Assembly (NCBI GenBank): GCA_018266435.1
Contig: JAFEAL010000005.1
Coordinates: 604,725 to 668,724 of the forward strand
Reading direction: 5' to 3'
DNA length: 64,000 bases
From: Bacteroidota bacterium
GTDB taxonomy: Bacteria > Bacteroidota > Bacteroidia > Cytophagales > Cyclobacteriaceae
The translations under genes and the position numbers were made by a program. Positions 59,316-64,000 of this stretch are shown piece by piece (within the stretch, counting starts at the first letter, position 1; every line of letters starts with the position of its first letter). The notes under the pieces are model-generated. The model had not been told where the DNA came from, made no database searches, and saw only the letters and a program-made list of their open reading frames with translations.

Positions 59316-60029
59316 TCACCTCAATTTTTTCAACACTTCTTCTTTGCTGATATACCCCGAATTACTCCAGGCAAGCGTTTTGTTTTTGTAGAGGTGCAAT
59401 ACCGGAATGGCGTCAATGTTTAGTTCTTTGCAAAGTTGCAGGTTGTCATCGGTATTGATGCGCACTACTTCCAGTTGACCGGCCATGTCGCGGGCAATTT
59501 CTTTGAGGTAGGGTTCCATTTTTTTACACGGGCCACACCACTCGGCATAGAAATCTACCAAAACCATTTTATCAGAGTGAATGAGGGCATTGAATTGTGC
59601 TGGGGTCATACCGGCCTGTTTGGTACGGTTGGTGGTGGTTTCAGGCAAGTTGGCGGCTCTCCATTTCATCATCCCGCCCTGCATTTCATACACTTCCTTA
59701 AACCCCTCAGAGCGCATCTGGTCAGCAGTGGCAGCACTTCTTCCACCGCTCAGGCAGTAAACAAAAACAGGTTTGGTTTTATCCAGTTTTGAAATTTCAG
59801 TTTGAAAACGAGATCCGTTCCAGTCTATGTTCTTTGCGTTTTGCAAATGCCCGGTAGAAAATTCTTGCGGTGTGCGCACATCAATAACTGGTGCTTCCGG
59901 CAGTTGCTTAATTTTTTCTGCAAATTCTTTTGCTGTCAAGTTGAAGGTTGAGTTTTGCGACTGAACGTTACCGCAACCGCTGAGAAATGTTACCCCAACT
60001 ACACTTAACAATAGAAAATACCTGGTCAT
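59316..60029 (-). CDS. Rhodanese-thioredoxin fusion lipoprotein
   Basis: A 237-residue lipoprotein (lipobox LSGC, Cys19). Residues 28-128 form a rhodanese domain with active Cys92 in YCLSGGRSAA, and residues 138-237 form a thioredoxin with WCGPCKK (Cys165, Cys168) and cis-Pro in AIPVLHLY. Persulfide formed on Cys92 could be passed to or reduced by the thioredoxin cysteines within one periplasmic protein. It is the last gene of the nine-gene operon starting at 62567, three bases after the free thioredoxin gene. Confidence 0.93.
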   Translation of the reverse strand: MTRYFLLLSVVGVTFLSGCGNVQSQNSTFNLTAKEFAEKIKQLPEAPVIDVRTPQEFSTGHLQNAKNIDWNGSRFQTEISKLDKTKPVFVYCLSGGRSAATADQMRSEGFKEVYEMQGGMMKWRAANLPETTTNRTKQAGMTPAQFNALIHSDKMVLVDFYAEWCGPCKKMEPYLKEIARDMAGQLEVVRINTDDNLQLCKELNIDAIPVLHLYKNKTLAWSNSGYISKEEVLKKLR

Positions 60030-60032
60030 GGG

Positions 60033-60347
60033 TTATTGGTGTTGATGAATGATTTGTTCTAAATAGCTGGCGTGTACTACACCTGACTGTCTCCATTTTA
60101 TTTCTTTATTTTTAAAAAGAATAAGTGTAGGTACTCCCTGAATGTGGTAAGCAGAAGCTACCAGCGGGTTTTTGTCAACGTCAATTTTTAAAATGGTAGC
60201 GTTGTCGCCAACTTTGCTTTTTAATTCATCCAGAATAGGTTTCATCATTTTACAAGGCCCACACCACTCAGCCGAAAAATCAACCAGCACGGGCTTGTCT
60301 TGAGCGATGATTTCTGAAAATGTTTTTGGTTTTTCTGTACTCTCCAC
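60033..60347 (-). CDS. Thioredoxin
   Basis: A 104-residue cytosolic thioredoxin with WCGPCKM (Cys29, Cys32), the buried Asp in KIDVDKN and the cis-Pro loop GVPTLILF. It reduces disulfides and persulfides. It lies one base after the Cys-rich membrane protein's stop, deep in the sulfur/redox operon, so it likely serves the neighbouring rhodaneses instead of being the housekeeping copy. Confidence 0.93.
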
Positions 60348-60348
60348 G

Positions 60349-60603
60349 TTAGTTTGATTTGGTTTCTTCGGGTTTTATTTCTTCAGGTTGCAAGGATTGC
60401 TCTTGAGCAGGTGTAGAGCACGTATTGCCAAAACAGTTTCCGGCAGCACAGCCAAAAGCAAACACGCCCATGGATGCAAAATAACCGCCCAGTATAACTC
60501 CGCCCCATTCGTGCTGCATGACTGATTGAACGATGATTGCTCCCCCCAACAAGACGTAAATTACCCGTTGAAAATTCCAACCAGTTATAACTCGTTGTTT
60601 CAT
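60349..60603 (-). CDS. Small Cys-rich membrane protein of the redox operon
   Basis: An 84-residue protein with two hydrophobic helices (about 12-27 and 34-52) and three cysteines at the membrane edge (C52, C57, C62 in [13 protein letters not shown]), then an acidic tail rich in Glu and Pro. The helical hairpin resembles YgaP/DUF2892-like sulfur-transfer membrane anchors, but the family match is weak. The spaced cysteines could carry persulfide or metal. One base separates it from Dps upstream and from thioredoxin downstream. Confidence 0.75.
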
Positions 60604-60604
60604 A

Positions 60605-61078
60605 TTAGTTGTTCAGGTAAGAAGAATACATCCATACTAATTTTTCCTGCTCGCGTATGTAATCGCTCATCAGTGCGTTGGTGCCTTCGTCTTGGGCATC
60701 GGCCGAAATTTCGAGCAGGTTTCTTTGTTTGATAAGAAGTGTTTGCAGAGAATCCAAAACGAGTTGAACGGCTTGCTGTGCCTGTGAAATATTTTTTCCG
60801 CTTTTGATGGAGGATACACTCAGGTAACTTTCAAACGTGTGTAGCGGGGCAACCCCCAGCGTAAGGATACGCTCGGCCACTTCATCTACTTTTAGCAGAA
60901 GATTGGTGTAGAGTTCTTCAAATTTCAGATGCAGTTCAAAAAATTTTTCTCCTTTTATGTTCCAATGTAACCCACGGGTATTTTGGTAAAAGAGCATGTA
61001 GTCTGCCAGTAAGTCATTTAGTTGTGCAGCCAGGTTTTCACTTTTCTTTTTATCTAGCCCGATGGAGTTCATAGTCAT
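60605..61078 (-). CDS. dps: Dps family ferritin-like DNA-binding protein
   Basis: A 157-residue four-helix protein that oxidises iron with peroxide and stores it in a 12-mer shell. The ferroxidase residues are visible in LHWNIKGEKFFELHLKFEELY and DEVAERI, and the conserved end is DEGTNALMSDYIREQEKLVWM. It has no long basic tail, so DNA binding may be weak. Its place among rhodanese and thioredoxin genes fits peroxide or iron stress linked to sulfur redox. Operon gaps are 13 bases before and one after. Confidence 0.93.
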   Translation of the reverse strand: MTMNSIGLDKKKSENLAAQLNDLLADYMLFYQNTRGLHWNIKGEKFFELHLKFEELYTNLLLKVDEVAERILTLGVAPLHTFESYLSVSSIKSGKNISQAQQAVQLVLDSLQTLLIKQRNLLEISADAQDEGTNALMSDYIREQEKLVWMYSSYLNN

Positions 61079-61091
61079 TTATTTTTATGAA

Positions 61092-61406
61092 TTAAGAAAT
61101 TTTGTTTTGCAGACTCATCCATCCTCCGCCATTGTAAACCTCGGCATACCCATTGGATTTTAGAATACTTTTTGCCGAAGCGCTGCGCATACCGGAAGCA
61201 CAACAGGTAATGACCGGCTTGTCTTTTCTGATTCTTGAAAGACTGTCTGAAAGACTCTGCAACGGTATGTTTACCGAGCCTTTGATGTGCCCGCCCTGAA
61301 ATTCTCCTTTGGTGCGCACATCAATGATTTGTGCACCGTTTTTAGTTAGTTCTTTAAAATCAGCTTTTGGGCCAAGGCCCAGTATATTTTTAATCAGTTG
61401 TACCAT
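61092..61406 (-). CDS. Rhodanese-like sulfurtransferase (single domain)
   Basis: A 104-residue single-domain rhodanese. Active loop CCASGMRS places the catalytic Cys at 69; DVRTKGEFQGGHIKGSVNIP is the family start. It can accept sulfane sulfur and pass it on. The extended N-terminus (residues 1-18, hydrophobic MVQLIKNILGLG) may attach it to a membrane or partner. It lies between Dps and the second rhodanese. Confidence 0.93.
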   Translation of the reverse strand: MVQLIKNILGLGPKADFKELTKNGAQIIDVRTKGEFQGGHIKGSVNIPLQSLSDSLSRIRKDKPVITCCASGMRSASAKSILKSNGYAEVYNGGGWMSLQNKIS

Positions 61407-61414
61407 TTTTAAAA

Positions 61415-61675
61415 TCAGTTTTCACTCATCGAATAATTTACATCAAACCAACTGCCACCGTTTTCGCAATCAATGCCCAGGTTGCGAAGATAGTAAGCGG
61501 CTTGGCCGCTGCGGTTTCCGCTGGCACAACACAACACAATGGGCTGTATCATTTTTTTAATTTCATCCACACGCATAGGTAGTTCGTTTAGCGGAATATT
61601 GATGCTGCCGGCTATACTTCCGCCCATAAACTCTGCCGGGGTGCGCACATCTATTACTGTTTTATTTTTTTTCAT
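61415..61675 (-). CDS. Rhodanese-like sulfurtransferase (single domain, short)
   Basis: An 86-residue, minimal rhodanese beginning IDVRTPAEFMGGSIAGSINIPL with active loop CCASGNRSG (catalytic Cys50). It is the closest relative of the next rhodanese in the operon but lacks its N-terminal segment. Its first 14 coding bases overlap the end of the DUF6132 gene, which implies translational coupling. Two tandem, distinct rhodaneses suggest separate donors or acceptors. Confidence 0.92.
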   Translation of the reverse strand: MKKNKTVIDVRTPAEFMGGSIAGSINIPLNELPMRVDEIKKMIQPIVLCCASGNRSGQAAYYLRNLGIDCENGGSWFDVNYSMSEN

Positions 61676-61886
61676 TTTCAGACGTTATATTTTTTGTGGT
61701 TTCTTTTTTAAAACTAGGGAATAGCAGGGCTCCAATCAAAGCTCCGTAGGCCGTGCTGTTCAACGGGCGCGAAGTAATGGGGCATGTGCCACGGGTACAG
61801 CCAACAAAATGATAGTAGGTGTAGCCGGCAATTCCACCAATTATTATTCCAAGTAGTGTGAGTTTATATTTTAATAAGTAATGCAT
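61662..61886 (-). CDS. DUF6132 family small membrane protein
   Basis: A 74-residue protein with two helices (LLGIIIGGIAGYTYYHFVG; YGALIGALLFPSF) and a CTRGTCPITSRP loop with two cysteines between. This is the DUF6132 pattern, repeatedly found near rhodaneses. The CxxxxCP loop could carry sulfur. Start and OsmC stop share one base (TGATG), so the genes are coupled. Confidence 0.85.
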   Translation of the reverse strand: MHYLLKYKLTLLGIIIGGIAGYTYYHFVGCTRGTCPITSRPLNSTAYGALIGALLFPSFKKETTKNITSENEKK

Positions 61887-62347
61887 CAGGCAGGCTGTGC
61901 TACAGCTTGTGTTTGGTTATTGAAAATTTCTTTTTCGTTGTAAATTATTTGCCAGGTAACAGGCATGATTTTTTTGAGCATATGGCTAACTCCGCAGATT
62001 TTTTCCTGCGAGGTCATTACGGCATCAAAAGCGGCTTGCTCGTCTTCAATATTCCCTTTCATTTCATAGATGATATTGGCCGACACATACTCAATGGGTT
62101 GTTGTTTGCTGATTTCTCCGCTTACTTTTAAGTTCAGGTCGGTCAGTTGTTTGCCTTGTTTGCGAAGCAGGGCGATTACATCCATGCCCGTGCACCCCGA
62201 GAGCGCAGTGAGAACAAATGGCTTAGGGATGGATCCGCGATCTTCGCCACCTACTCGCTCGGGGGCATCCATGACTACCGTATGACCATTGACCAGTGCG
62301 TTGAATTGCATTTTGCCCATCCACTGAGCTTCTATTTCGTGTTTCAT
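61886..62347 (-). CDS. OsmC family peroxide/persulfide-reactive protein
   Basis: A 153-residue OsmC/Ohr-like dimer protein with the two reactive cysteines C52 (SGCTGMDVI) and C118 (EKICGVSHML), as in the OsmC subgroup. These reduce organic hydroperoxides and have been tied to persulfides in some bacteria. The frame extends upstream by 15 codons, but the ATG at 62347 fits the conserved HEIEAQWMGKMQF. It is second in the operon, 10 bases after DUF2892. Confidence 0.9.
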   Translation of the reverse strand: MKHEIEAQWMGKMQFNALVNGHTVVMDAPERVGGEDRGSIPKPFVLTALSGCTGMDVIALLRKQGKQLTDLNLKVSGEISKQQPIEYVSANIIYEMKGNIEDEQAAFDAVMTSQEKICGVSHMLKKIMPVTWQIIYNEKEIFNNQTQAVAQPA

Positions 62348-62357
62348 CTTTTTAATT

Positions 62358-62567
62358 TTATTGTTGAGATTTATTTTTTGTAGTAATACCAAAAGGCAAG
62401 TAGAGCGGACAAAAACTGATGAAACTAGTGACCACTAAAACGATGGACAGAATGGCCAGAATAGCCGCAGTTGTGCCCGTGATTTGATTGGTGAAATAAA
62501 GAACCGCAATGATAACTGCCGCGAGCAATCGTATTACCCGGTCGGCCGAACCCATATTTTTTTTCAT
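62358..62567 (-). CDS. DUF2892 family membrane protein (YgaP transmembrane type)
   Basis: A 69-residue protein beginning MKKNMGSADRVIRLLAAV, followed by two helices (about 11-29 and 33-54) and a CPLYLPFGI end. This is the DUF2892 fold that is fused to rhodanese in E. coli YgaP, where it anchors a sulfur transferase to the membrane. Here it is a separate first gene of the operon, next to two separate rhodaneses. A near -7 box and a Crp-type site lie directly upstream. Confidence 0.88.
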   Translation of the reverse strand: MKKNMGSADRVIRLLAAVIIAVLYFTNQITGTTAAILAILSIVLVVTSFISFCPLYLPFGITTKNKSQQ

Positions 62568-62593
62568 ACCTGATCTTTTTAGTTTTTGTAAGG

Positions 62594-62601
62594 CAAAGAT
62601 C
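62594..62601 (-). promoter_or_regulatory. -7 box of the sulfur/redox operon
   Basis: On the minus strand GATCTTTG differs at one base from TAnnTTTG, 26 bases before the DUF2892 start. Transcription should begin near 62590. Confidence 0.45.
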
Positions 62602-62622
62602 AATAGGAAAAAAATACAGGAG

Positions 62623-62638
62623 AGTGACTTTGGTCACA
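62623..62638. promoter_or_regulatory. Crp/Fnr-type operator upstream of the sulfur/redox operon
   Basis: On the minus strand TGTGACCAAAGTCACT, with perfect GTGAC/GTCAC arms, resembles the TGTGA-N6-TCACA site of Crp. Its centre is about 40-41 bases from the predicted start, the class II activator position. It overlaps the last codons of the Crp/Fnr gene itself. Confidence 0.6.
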
Positions 62639-63263
62639 ATTCCCTCAGTAATTTGATTTGATTGCGGTAGAGCAGCACTTTTTTGTCATTTTCAAGTTTT
62701 TTCAGCAACCGCGAAATCACTTCTCTTGATGAGGCCATTTCGTTGGCAATTTCTTCATGCGAAAGATTGATGAGCGAAGACCCGGTGGCTTTGGATTTTT
62801 CTTTGAGGTAATGCACCAGGCGTTCATCCAGTTTTTGAAAGGCTAATTGGTCAATGGCATTTAACAACTCGTTAAAGCGGCTACGAATGGTGCGCATCAC
62901 AAAACTTTTCCAGGTAGGAAATTTAGCAATCCATTCGTCCATGTTCCCAATGGGAATGGCCAAAAATTCAACCTCACTTTCGGCAGTTGCTTTTACTTCA
63001 CTGGGGTATTGCTGCATGCAGCAGGTAAAGGTCATGGCGCAGCTTTCGTTGGCATGCACATAGTATAGCAACAGCTCTTTGCCGGCCTGATCCACCCGGG
63101 TTATCTTCAGGATTCCTTTCAATAAAAGCGGAATTATTCTTACGGTTTGTCCAATGTCGAGTAGTACATCGCCTTCTTTTACTGAAACAATTTTTGCTTT
63201 AGATTCAATTTCACGCAGCAACTCTGGTTCAAAAATAGTTTTGAATTTTTCGGTGATATTCAT
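62634..63263 (-). CDS. Crp/Fnr family regulator with cysteine cluster
   Basis: A 209-residue regulator: cyclic-nucleotide-like beta barrel (about 25-120), dimer helix (120-145) and winged helix with recognition helix SREVISRLL. R180, E181 and R185 match the E. coli Crp residues that read TGTGA. Three cysteines (C75, C81, C82 in ESCAMTFTCCMQQ) stand in the barrel where a ligand would sit, and could sense thiol oxidation, persulfide or a metal/Fe-S cluster. It has no Fnr-type N-terminal Cys set. It lies 66 bases upstream of the sulfur/redox operon, and a matching site lies at its own end. Confidence 0.9.
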   Translation of the reverse strand: MNITEKFKTIFEPELLREIESKAKIVSVKEGDVLLDIGQTVRIIPLLLKGILKITRVDQAGKELLLYYVHANESCAMTFTCCMQQYPSEVKATAESEVEFLAIPIGNMDEWIAKFPTWKSFVMRTIRSRFNELLNAIDQLAFQKLDERLVHYLKEKSKATGSSLINLSHEEIANEMASSREVISRLLKKLENDKKVLLYRNQIKLLREL

Positions 63264-63289
63264 GTTGTGAAGGTAGCAAAAGAGTTGGT

Positions 63290-63309
63290 AGTGCTTGGGT
63301 AAAAGCACT
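63290..63309. promoter_or_regulatory. Inverted repeat upstream of the Crp/Fnr gene
   Basis: AGTGCTT and AAGCACT, a perfect seven-base dyad with a six-base centre, lie 27-46 bases before the regulator start. It differs from the TGTGA site. It could be an operator, or a weak hairpin at the end of the ferredoxin transcript. Confidence 0.35.
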
Positions 63310-63364
63310 GGTTAAAAAAATTTTCGCCAGCAGGCAATCGTATTTCGTGCAAACGGGCAACCGA

Positions 63365-63586
63365 TTAGTTTACTTTAATTACCCTAACCGGGCAGGCTCG
63401 CGCAGTGATGACTGATTCTTCATGATCTTTTTGGCTGATTTCAAGAATGAATATATTTTTTTTCAGAAAGGCTTTCAGCAGGGTAGCCTTGCCGTCTTTT
63501 TTTGACATGCGCCAAAATTCAGGCTGTAGTTCATGGCAAACTCCGCAACCGATGCATTTATTACGGTAGTGAATGAGCTTAGGCAT
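63365..63586 (-). CDS. Ferredoxin, single 4Fe-4S type
   Basis: A 73-residue protein with C11, C14, C17 in CIGCGVC and the fourth ligand C64 in ACPVRVI. So a single [4Fe-4S] cluster is expected. The start at 63586 overlaps the end of the U32 gene by eight bases (ATGCCTAA), so translation is coupled; the ferredoxin probably feeds electrons to or otherwise serves that U32 enzyme. Confidence 0.92.
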   Translation of the reverse strand: MPKLIHYRNKCIGCGVCHELQPEFWRMSKKDGKATLLKAFLKKNIFILEISQKDHEESVITARACPVRVIKVN

Positions 63587-64000
63587 TGTGGGAAGCAATC
63601 AGTTTGTAAAGCTTATCAGTACCCGCGGTTTTATGATCAAAAGGAAAGGTAATCCGGTCGCCCCGGTGTGCTTCGCTGGCAGGGTTTCCATTTACATGAA
63701 GTTCGCAAAGTGTAAACTGTTGTGCACCAAAATTTTTTCCCAGTATCAGAATTTTGTCACCAAGTTTTACGTTGCCTGTTTCCATTTCAAATTCGGCAAT
63801 CTTTCTTTTTGAAAAGAAGTTAGTGCTTTTGCCGAGATAGACTTTTTTCTCTGTAGCAGCCGAGCCCGGGTTTCTGGTCCACTCGCCCAGTTTTCTTCCC
63901 AGGTAGTACCCTTCCCAAAAGCCCCGGTTGTAGACCGTTTCAAGGCGGGTGATCCAGTAGTTGATTTTTGTTTCGTCATAATTCCCACATTTAATGGCAT
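63579..64000 (-). CDS. U32 family peptidase/hydroxylase (C-terminal part)
   Basis: The last 139 or so residues of a U32 protein; the rest lies beyond the right edge. The reading frame without ATG from the edge gives KCGNYDETKINYWITRLETV, then YNRGFWEGYYLGRKLGEW and TEKKVYLGK before the C-terminal beta domain KLGDKILILG. This matches the C-terminal portion of U32 proteins such as TrhP and YhbU/YhbV, which hydroxylate tRNA or ubiquinone with Fe-S help. A coupled ferredoxin supports an Fe-S redox role over peptidase activity. The overlapping frame at 63767-64000 that starts with an ATG is a shadow. Confidence 0.85.
   Translation of the reverse strand, partial: AIKCGNYDETKINYWITRLETVYNRGFWEGYYLGRKLGEWTRNPGSAATEKKVYLGKSTNFFSKRKIAEFEMETGNVKLGDKILILGKNFGAQQFTLCELHVNGNPASEAHRGDRITFPFDHKTAGTDKLYKLIASHNA

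Follow-up and report, generated by a model that had tools for sequence, protein, structure and literature searches.

A Crp/Fnr-type regulator with three cysteines and a predicted sulfane-sulfur operon in Bacteroidota

To our knowledge, the transcription factors that respond to sulfane sulfur (persulfides and polysulfides) are of the ArsR, CsoR, sigma-54-activator, OxyR and similar types. CstR and FisR, like SqrR/BigR, control gene sets for sulfide oxidation that comprise sulfide:quinone reductase (SQR), persulfide dioxygenase (PDO) and rhodanese; OxyR is a LysR-type protein. This study concerns a locus in a 64,000-nucleotide stretch (the window) of a Bacteroidota genome from the family Cyclobacteriaceae (assembly GCA_018266435.1, contig JAFEAL010000005.1, positions 604,725 to 668,724, forward strand), in which a gene for a cysteine-bearing Crp/Fnr-type regulator precedes nine tightly packed genes. 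To judge from comparative sequence analysis, the locus is probably a module for defence against sulfane sulfur, controlled by a class II activator from the Crp/Fnr superfamily. The operon's enzymes belong to familiar types. The regulator, together with its operator, is apparently undescribed, on the evidence of our searches. No description of the regulator or of the gene set was found among openly licensed PMC papers, which is weak evidence of absence.

Among described systems, ygaVP of Escherichia coli (in the portion of PMC9774250 drawn on here) comes close in that a YgaP-type transmembrane (TM) domain and a rhodanese stand beside a cysteine regulator that answers sulfide. In the window, the TM protein (PF11127) and the rhodaneses (PF00581) are separate genes, accompanied by thioredoxins, an OsmC protein and more cysteine-bearing membrane proteins. 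YgaV is an ArsR-type repressor, whereas the window's regulator is of the Crp/Fnr type, not a member of the ArsR family, and is placed as an activator. The original prediction, a note made from the letters of the window, had seen here a split and enlarged YgaP system; this fits some of the parts, but not the regulator family. The SQR–PDO–rhodanese sets under SqrR/BigR, for which homologues are reported in Bacteroides too (same portion of PMC9774250), are similar in that the operator of the window regulator's relatives precedes PDO-like, rhodanese, TauE and SQR-like genes; the regulator superfamily differs, and the window's operon contains neither PDO nor SQR. Under OxyR control, thioredoxin 2 and glutaredoxin 1 of E. 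coli remove sulfane sulfur, a system that likewise joins reduction by thioredoxin-type proteins to a cysteine-bearing activator; unlike the window, it has no rhodanese or YgaP-type operon in the excerpt of PMC6831875 consulted.

The regulator and its cysteine triad

The domains of the regulator (PF00027, PF13545 and PF00325, all above cut-offs) place it in the Crp/Fnr superfamily, and a fold search with its AlphaFold model (mean predicted local distance difference test score 89.2; 32-row alignment) returned CRP, NtcA and PDB 3dv8. Like CRP, FNR, NtcA and 3dv8, it has the domains, fold and helix-turn-helix of the superfamily, from whose members it differs in having only three cysteines, placed in the sensor helix. 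These residues, C75, C81 and C82, are the only cysteines in the protein. The model has a helix at 76–84, with C75 just ahead of it and C81/C82 near its end; by position, this is presumably the phosphate-binding helix of cyclic-nucleotide-binding domains. FNR uses four cysteines to hold its cluster, and the regulator, with three in all, does not qualify as a [4Fe-4S] oxygen sensor of that kind. The NCBIfam model for CRP scores it at 39.1 bits against a cut-off of 266. Its best solved relative by sequence is 3dv8 from Eubacterium rectale (24% identity over the fold alignment), which has C-x5-C in common with it and lacks the third cysteine. As 3dv8 comes from outside Bacteroidota, cysteine-bearing relatives may extend past one phylum.

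A scan of contigs for the regulator matched at least 588 stretches, 578 of these relatives. The best 80 were kept as loci and combined with 30 further ones, the window's included, to give a set of 110 (loci are numbered with L, genomes with G). L112, L116, L117 and L118 were excluded because they seem to duplicate L045, L080, L078 and L083, and the pairs L061/L062 and L087/L089 were both kept despite near-identical regulators. The motif C-x5-CC is preserved in 104 of the 110 aligned homologues. Of 291 genomes from the order, 150 have a homologue at E ≤ 1e-30 (single-protein query); for the phylum, the figure is 154 of 395 (profile). Both sets are even draws from larger groups; the window's own genome has one match. 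In a scan of viral contigs, 17 stretches fitted a pattern, none encoding a relative.

Operator, target genes and recurrence of the gene set

An inverted repeat, GTGAC-N4-GTCAC, spans the stop codon of the window's regulator gene; the pattern has two exact matches in the genome of 3.48 Mb. Relatives often carry GTRAC-N4-GTYAC at the equivalent position, and in many loci the site abuts the regulator's stop codon. Across 81 loci (1,256,592 bases) this pattern gave 160 site-orientations (80 palindromes), as against 14, 12 and 4 for permuted patterns; with arm spacings of 3, 5 and 6 instead of 4, the same loci gave 6, 0 and 2 sites. The class II position of CRP and FNR is −41.5. In 50 of the 160 site-orientations, TTTG follows exactly 26 bases downstream, and every other offset from 0 to 49 was seen 0–9 times. 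Since −7 boxes of the Flavobacterium sigma-A factor (TAnnTTTG) lie at −12 to −5 (in the part of PMC9723704 used here), this spacing puts the operator centre at −41.5. The window's box, GATCTTTG, differs from the consensus at its first base. With a centre predicted at −41.5 ahead of a sigma-A −7 box, and a start that is itself predicted, the arrangement is that of a class II Crp/Fnr-dependent promoter. A gene of the sulfur module directly follows the regulator in 43 loci. A site matching at least 9 of 10 positions is present in 38 of these, with TTTG at 25–27 in 30 of the 38 and at exactly 26 in 25. The five without a scored site are L033 (where the open reading frame (ORF) was begun too early and a full site is present), L127 (8/10), L088, L103 and L144. 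Together these comparisons support the assignment of the operator to the neighbouring three-cysteine regulator, acting as a predicted class II activator.

Changes of Glu181 in CRP alter the preference at one base pair, and the pairing of helix residue and half-site letter in this family looks like a natural version of the classic specificity-switch genetics of CRP. CRP contacts specific bases through Arg180, Glu181 and Arg185 (excerpt of PMC12531629). At the position equivalent to Glu181, 34 of the 110 regulators have E and 71 have V, with five uncalled (L096, L102, L144, L145 and L150). Half-sites of exact sites carry 22 G and 10 A in E-type loci (16 sites) and 3 G and 101 A in V-type loci (52 sites); an earlier subset gave 16 G/6 A and 3 G/101 A, respectively. 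Counted by locus (n = 52), 44 are V with A and seven are E with G; the one exception, L032, has E with A. On a tree, with loci of equal G and A counts left uncalled, there are four residue changes and three operator changes, which yield two independent pairs; the half-site moved concordantly in 1.8 of the two on average, and never in the opposite direction. A sign test on the two pairs gives p 0.5, and the Fisher test (p 8.9e-15) ignores relatedness; the link was therefore rejected as strong independent proof. The agreement supports the pairing of regulator and operator without proving it independently.

Sites with TTTG at 25–27 number 70 (62 at exactly 26), in 53 of 111 loci. By manual reading of the site list, a gene of the sulfur module lies directly behind 47 of them: PDO-like (14), TauE (10; in L037 the YgaP-like TM gene comes first), OsmC operons (5), the cysteine-rich small membrane protein (5), SulP (3), YgaP-like TM protein (2), a YeeE part (2), a TPMT-type methyltransferase (2), and, once each, an operon of the cysteine-rich membrane protein with DUF6132, a CoA-disulfide-reductase–rhodanese, a rhodanese, and a DUF6132/rhodanese operon. 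A gene was called PDO-like if it combined metallo-beta-lactamase and rhodanese domains; its NCBIfam match, to a bifunctional sulfur transferase/dioxygenase, is far under the cut-off.

Genome-wide operator scans cover three genomes: the window's, G404 and G323. The window's genome has nine palindromes, two of them with TTTG at 26, ahead of the nine-gene operon and of a DUF302 gene. In the V-type G404, five of seven GTAAC palindromes have the spacing (control, 7); they precede an SQR-like gene (235.8 bits to the type III SQR model, cut-off 525), two PDO-like genes, a SulP gene and a ResA/TlpA-like gene. In the E-type G323, none of seven GTAAC palindromes has it (control, 18); the site after its regulator is letter-for-letter the window's GTGAC site, with TTTG at 26.

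Families were counted on the regulator's strand within 9 kb, with variant OsmC, cysteine-rich membrane and YgaP-like TM families pooled with the window's; the resulting counts are lower bounds, since some contigs end early. The window has all nine operon families, L032 eight, L031 seven, and L035 and L145 six; at least five are found in 14 of the 110 loci and at least four in 25. Family by family, the counts are: rhodaneses of the second type 42, PDO-like 35, YgaP-like TM 30, thioredoxin 29, TauE 23, cysteine-rich membrane protein 22, the two YeeE parts 20 and 19, DUF6132 19, OsmC 16 and Dps 2. At least one scored sulfur gene occurs in 77 loci (61 of the 80 from the scan and 16 of the 30 further ones). 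Conservation of the gene order beyond close relatives had been set beforehand as the test of a coherent system. The order does recur: L032, for instance, reads TauE, PDO-like, Tll0287-like, regulator, YgaP-like TM, OsmC, DUF6132, two rhodaneses, cysteine-rich membrane protein, thioredoxin and rhodanese–thioredoxin. The idea of a coherent module under the neighbouring regulator is thereby strengthened, the conserved operator tying the set to sulfide and persulfide genes. Dps fares less well as a part of the system, since the two loci that have it include the window.

The original prediction had also remarked on the lack of PDO, SQR and sulfite exporter, and had proposed that sulfane sulfur may be reduced by thioredoxins instead of oxidised. 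The former holds for the operon; the genome, though, contains four TauE-family matches and, on a different contig, a PDO-like gene that shares 51% identity with that of L064. With such genes elsewhere in the genome, reduction as the sole route is weakened, all the more as a PDO-like gene sits beside or inside a similar gene set in L032, L037, L046 and L047 (inside it in the last three). An SQR-like gene was not found in the window's genome with one query, in a search that had no positive control, and Sulf_transp was not found in a search whose control matched in 6 of 14 genomes. Control of the PDO-like and TauE genes of this genome by the shared operator was considered and rejected: among matches of 9/10 or better, the five regions around them gave a single one with TTTG at 25–27 (9/10, L142, spacing 25, stretch unassigned).

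In four genomes of the same genus, the operon is not beside the OstA-like gene; three of them have a diverged version with regulators 38–41% identical, L143 and L145 with another OsmC type. The regulator of a metagenome-assembled genome (MAG) from Chitinophagales, by contrast, shares 84% identity with the window's. These findings suggest exchange between lineages.

Proposed mechanism and alternative readings

The conserved C-x5-CC triad, visible in the sequence, lies at both ends of the predicted sensor-domain helix. We infer that it is the sensor and sulfane sulfur the signal: sulfane sulfur would modify or cross-link the triad and make the dimer active. The dimer would then bind GTRAC-N4-GTYAC at −41.5, replace the −33 element and turn the promoter on, a step with support from comparative genomics. 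Judging by the protein families, sulfane sulfur would be taken up by the rhodaneses and reduced to sulfide by the cytoplasmic thioredoxin and by the lipoprotein's thioredoxin domain; the small cysteine-bearing membrane proteins would relay or move sulfur, and OsmC and Dps would keep damage by peroxide and iron in check. Genes of oxidation, export and uptake (PDO-like, SQR-like, TauE, YeeE and SulP) follow this regulator family and operator in relatives; the window's operon may therefore be the transfer and reduction branch of a shared regulon. Two cases show that such chemistry exists, albeit in other systems: SqrR forms a tetrasulfide bond with glutathione persulfide (PMC9774250, in the portion cited), and the reduction of sulfane sulfur to sulfide is ascribed to thioredoxin 2 and glutaredoxin 1 in E. 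coli (excerpt of PMC6831875).

Several results weigh against this reading. None of the nine families was found in 51 of the 110 loci, and no scored sulfur gene on the regulator's strand within 9 kb in 33, in both cases partly because contigs end. Other or unassigned genes follow 23 of the 70 spaced sites. By eye, six of them are TolC-like and two DUF983-like; two more are FA_hydroxylase-like, two encode a protein of 126 residues, two are the regulator gene itself, one is a peroxiredoxin gene and one a DUF302 gene, and seven are unassignable or apparent artefacts of ORF choice. Taken without its spacing, the palindrome shows no excess in the window's genome, where it occurs 9 times and the reversed control 32 times; the PDO-like and TauE regions of that genome have no full-quality operator site. 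Six homologues lack an intact triad: L115 is truncated, and L049, L085, L143, L145 and L150 are without one or both of the CC pair, L143 and L145 belonging to the window's own genus. Finally, independent switches of helix residue and half-site are few.

It seems very unlikely that a different Crp/Fnr-type regulator, for oxygen or nitric oxide for example, acts at the operator, with the three-cysteine neighbour incidental. The palindrome with its flanks does resemble the generic CRP site TGTGA-N6-TCACA, and the loci were chosen for the regulator, so that nearness is partly built into the sample. Against this, the site abuts the regulator's own stop codon in many loci, and the half-site type tracks this regulator's helix residue, also at the scale of whole genomes, where G323 combines unspaced GTAAC palindromes with a GTGAC site by its regulator and G404 has mostly spaced GTAAC sites. 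Least probable of all is sulfur trafficking for biosynthesis (Fe–S clusters, cofactors, tRNA thiolation) in place of defence. Rhodaneses and thioredoxins serve biosynthesis too, and the window's rhodaneses bear weak similarity to NCBIfam models for MoeB, MnmH and TrhO, all far below cut-off; the operon, however, has no cysteine desulfurase or cofactor gene, and the operator's partners are genes of oxidation and transport. A general thiol or oxidative stress operon, whose cysteines would sense peroxide or disulfide stress with the sulfur genes co-induced, would account for OsmC, Dps and two thioredoxin domains, as well as for peroxiredoxin-type genes in 8 of 110 loci; OxyR, a single cysteine regulator, senses both H2O2 and sulfane sulfur (PMC6831875, in the part consulted). 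We consider it unlikely, given that the operator's targets are mainly PDO-like, TauE, YeeE, SulP, SQR-like and rhodanese genes, and that a peroxiredoxin lies directly behind just one of the 70 sites and Dps is as rare as noted above.

Beyond the proposed sulfane-sulfur module of the window, a wider proposition has about an even chance of being right: that a Crp/Fnr family spread through the phylum has turned its cyclic-nucleotide region into a three-cysteine sulfane-sulfur switch and acts as a main sulfide/persulfide activator in many Bacteroidota, reading a two-letter code (E/GTGAC, V/GTAAC) at −41.5. It would be the counterpart of SqrR, CstR and FisR, and in some lineages would drive a transfer and reduction module (rhodaneses, thioredoxins and three small cysteine-bearing membrane families) in place of or beside oxidation. 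If so, the sulfide/persulfide regulons of Bacteroidota could be predicted from sequence by way of a Crp/Fnr-type sulfur activator whose operator can be read, and DUF302, DUF6132, the YgaP-like TM family and the unnamed cysteine-rich membrane family would be joined to one testable pathway.

Layout of the operon and minor observations

The ten ORFs run from 63263 to 59316, all on the minus strand; the regulator gene is followed after 66 bases by the nine-gene run, in which the intergenic distances are, in order, 10, −1, −14, 8, 13, 1, 1 and 3 bases. The families named in the original prediction were all recovered, with gaps of at most 13 bases, as were its three rhodanese and two thioredoxin domains. 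Its count of four membrane-bound proteins is likely: a simple hydropathy scan gave two peaks for the YgaP-like protein, two for the cysteine-rich protein and one for the lipoprotein, and none for the DUF6132 protein at the cut-off used. Downstream lies an OstA-like gene (by reading) in the opposite orientation; upstream, on the operon's strand, are a ferredoxin-like gene and a peptidase U32 gene.

Table 1. Positions of the regulator, operon genes and predicted promoter elements in the window.
Feature	Position	Strand	Basis
Crp/Fnr-type regulator; C75/C81-C82 triad; recognition helix SREVISR (E-type)	62634..63263	−	Pfam cNMP_binding and HTH_Crp_2
Operator GTGACCAAAGTCAC, spanning the regulator stop codon; predicted centre −41.5	62624..62637	−	Kept in relatives; identical in G323
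Predicted −7 box GATCTTTG; TTTG 26 bases past the operator; predicted start near 62589	62594..62601	−	Spacing and published box position
YgaP-like TM protein (DUF2892); CPLY/CPIY conserved	62358..62567	−	PF11127, E 1.4e-21; alignment
OsmC-family protein	61886..62347	−	PF02566, E 4.2e-11; two OsmC cysteines in translation
DUF6132 protein; GC-x4-C conserved	61662..61886	−	PF19628, E 6.3e-7; alignment
Rhodanese 1, single-domain; active loop CASGNR	61415..61675	−	PF00581, E 1.3e-12
Rhodanese 2, single-domain; active loop CASGMR	61092..61406	−	PF00581, E 5.6e-19
Dps-type ferritin	60605..61078	−	PF00210, E 2.4e-24
Cysteine-rich small membrane protein; three cysteines by second hydrophobic stretch	60349..60603	−	Hydropathy; 20 relatives aligned
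Thioredoxin; WCGPC; GTG start	60033..60347	−	PF00085, E 2.4e-28; TIGR01068 above cut-off
Rhodanese (CLSGGR) and thioredoxin (WCGPC) lipoprotein	59316..60029	−	PF00581 and PF00085; lipobox LSGC

Pfam and NCBIfam searches gave no family for the cysteine-rich small protein; variants with conserved cysteines occur in 22 of the 110 loci, which makes it a candidate for a new named family. The regulators of L143 and L145 keep the first cysteine and have GG in place of the CC pair, and still precede a set of YgaP-like TM, DUF6132 and rhodanese genes; L145 has a full operator with spacing 26. The two regulators offer a natural test of which cysteines matter. The exact-geometry palindrome ahead of the DUF302 gene in the window's genome (L159, contig C5 near 65790) is followed after that gene by a CMD-family gene. 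DUF302 genes are near the regulator also in L078, with a 9/10 site at spacing 28, and in L124, where a full site lies between the DUF302 and regulator genes with TTTG at 26 on the regulator's side. Sites at spacing 26 precede TolC-type-looking outer-membrane genes in L056, L066, L070, L072, L094 and L104, and RND-type genes are near the regulator in 11 of the 110 loci; an efflux system may belong to the regulon. Genes like those for fatty-acid hydroxylases, with no obvious sulfur link, lie behind operator sites in L081 and L107 and across from one in L178. The records of L055 and L080 are titled Streptomyces griseus and Bifidobacterium breve; with regulators 53% and 49% identical to the window's, and OprD-type or YeeE genes in Bacteroidota-like loci, they are probably misnamed MAGs.

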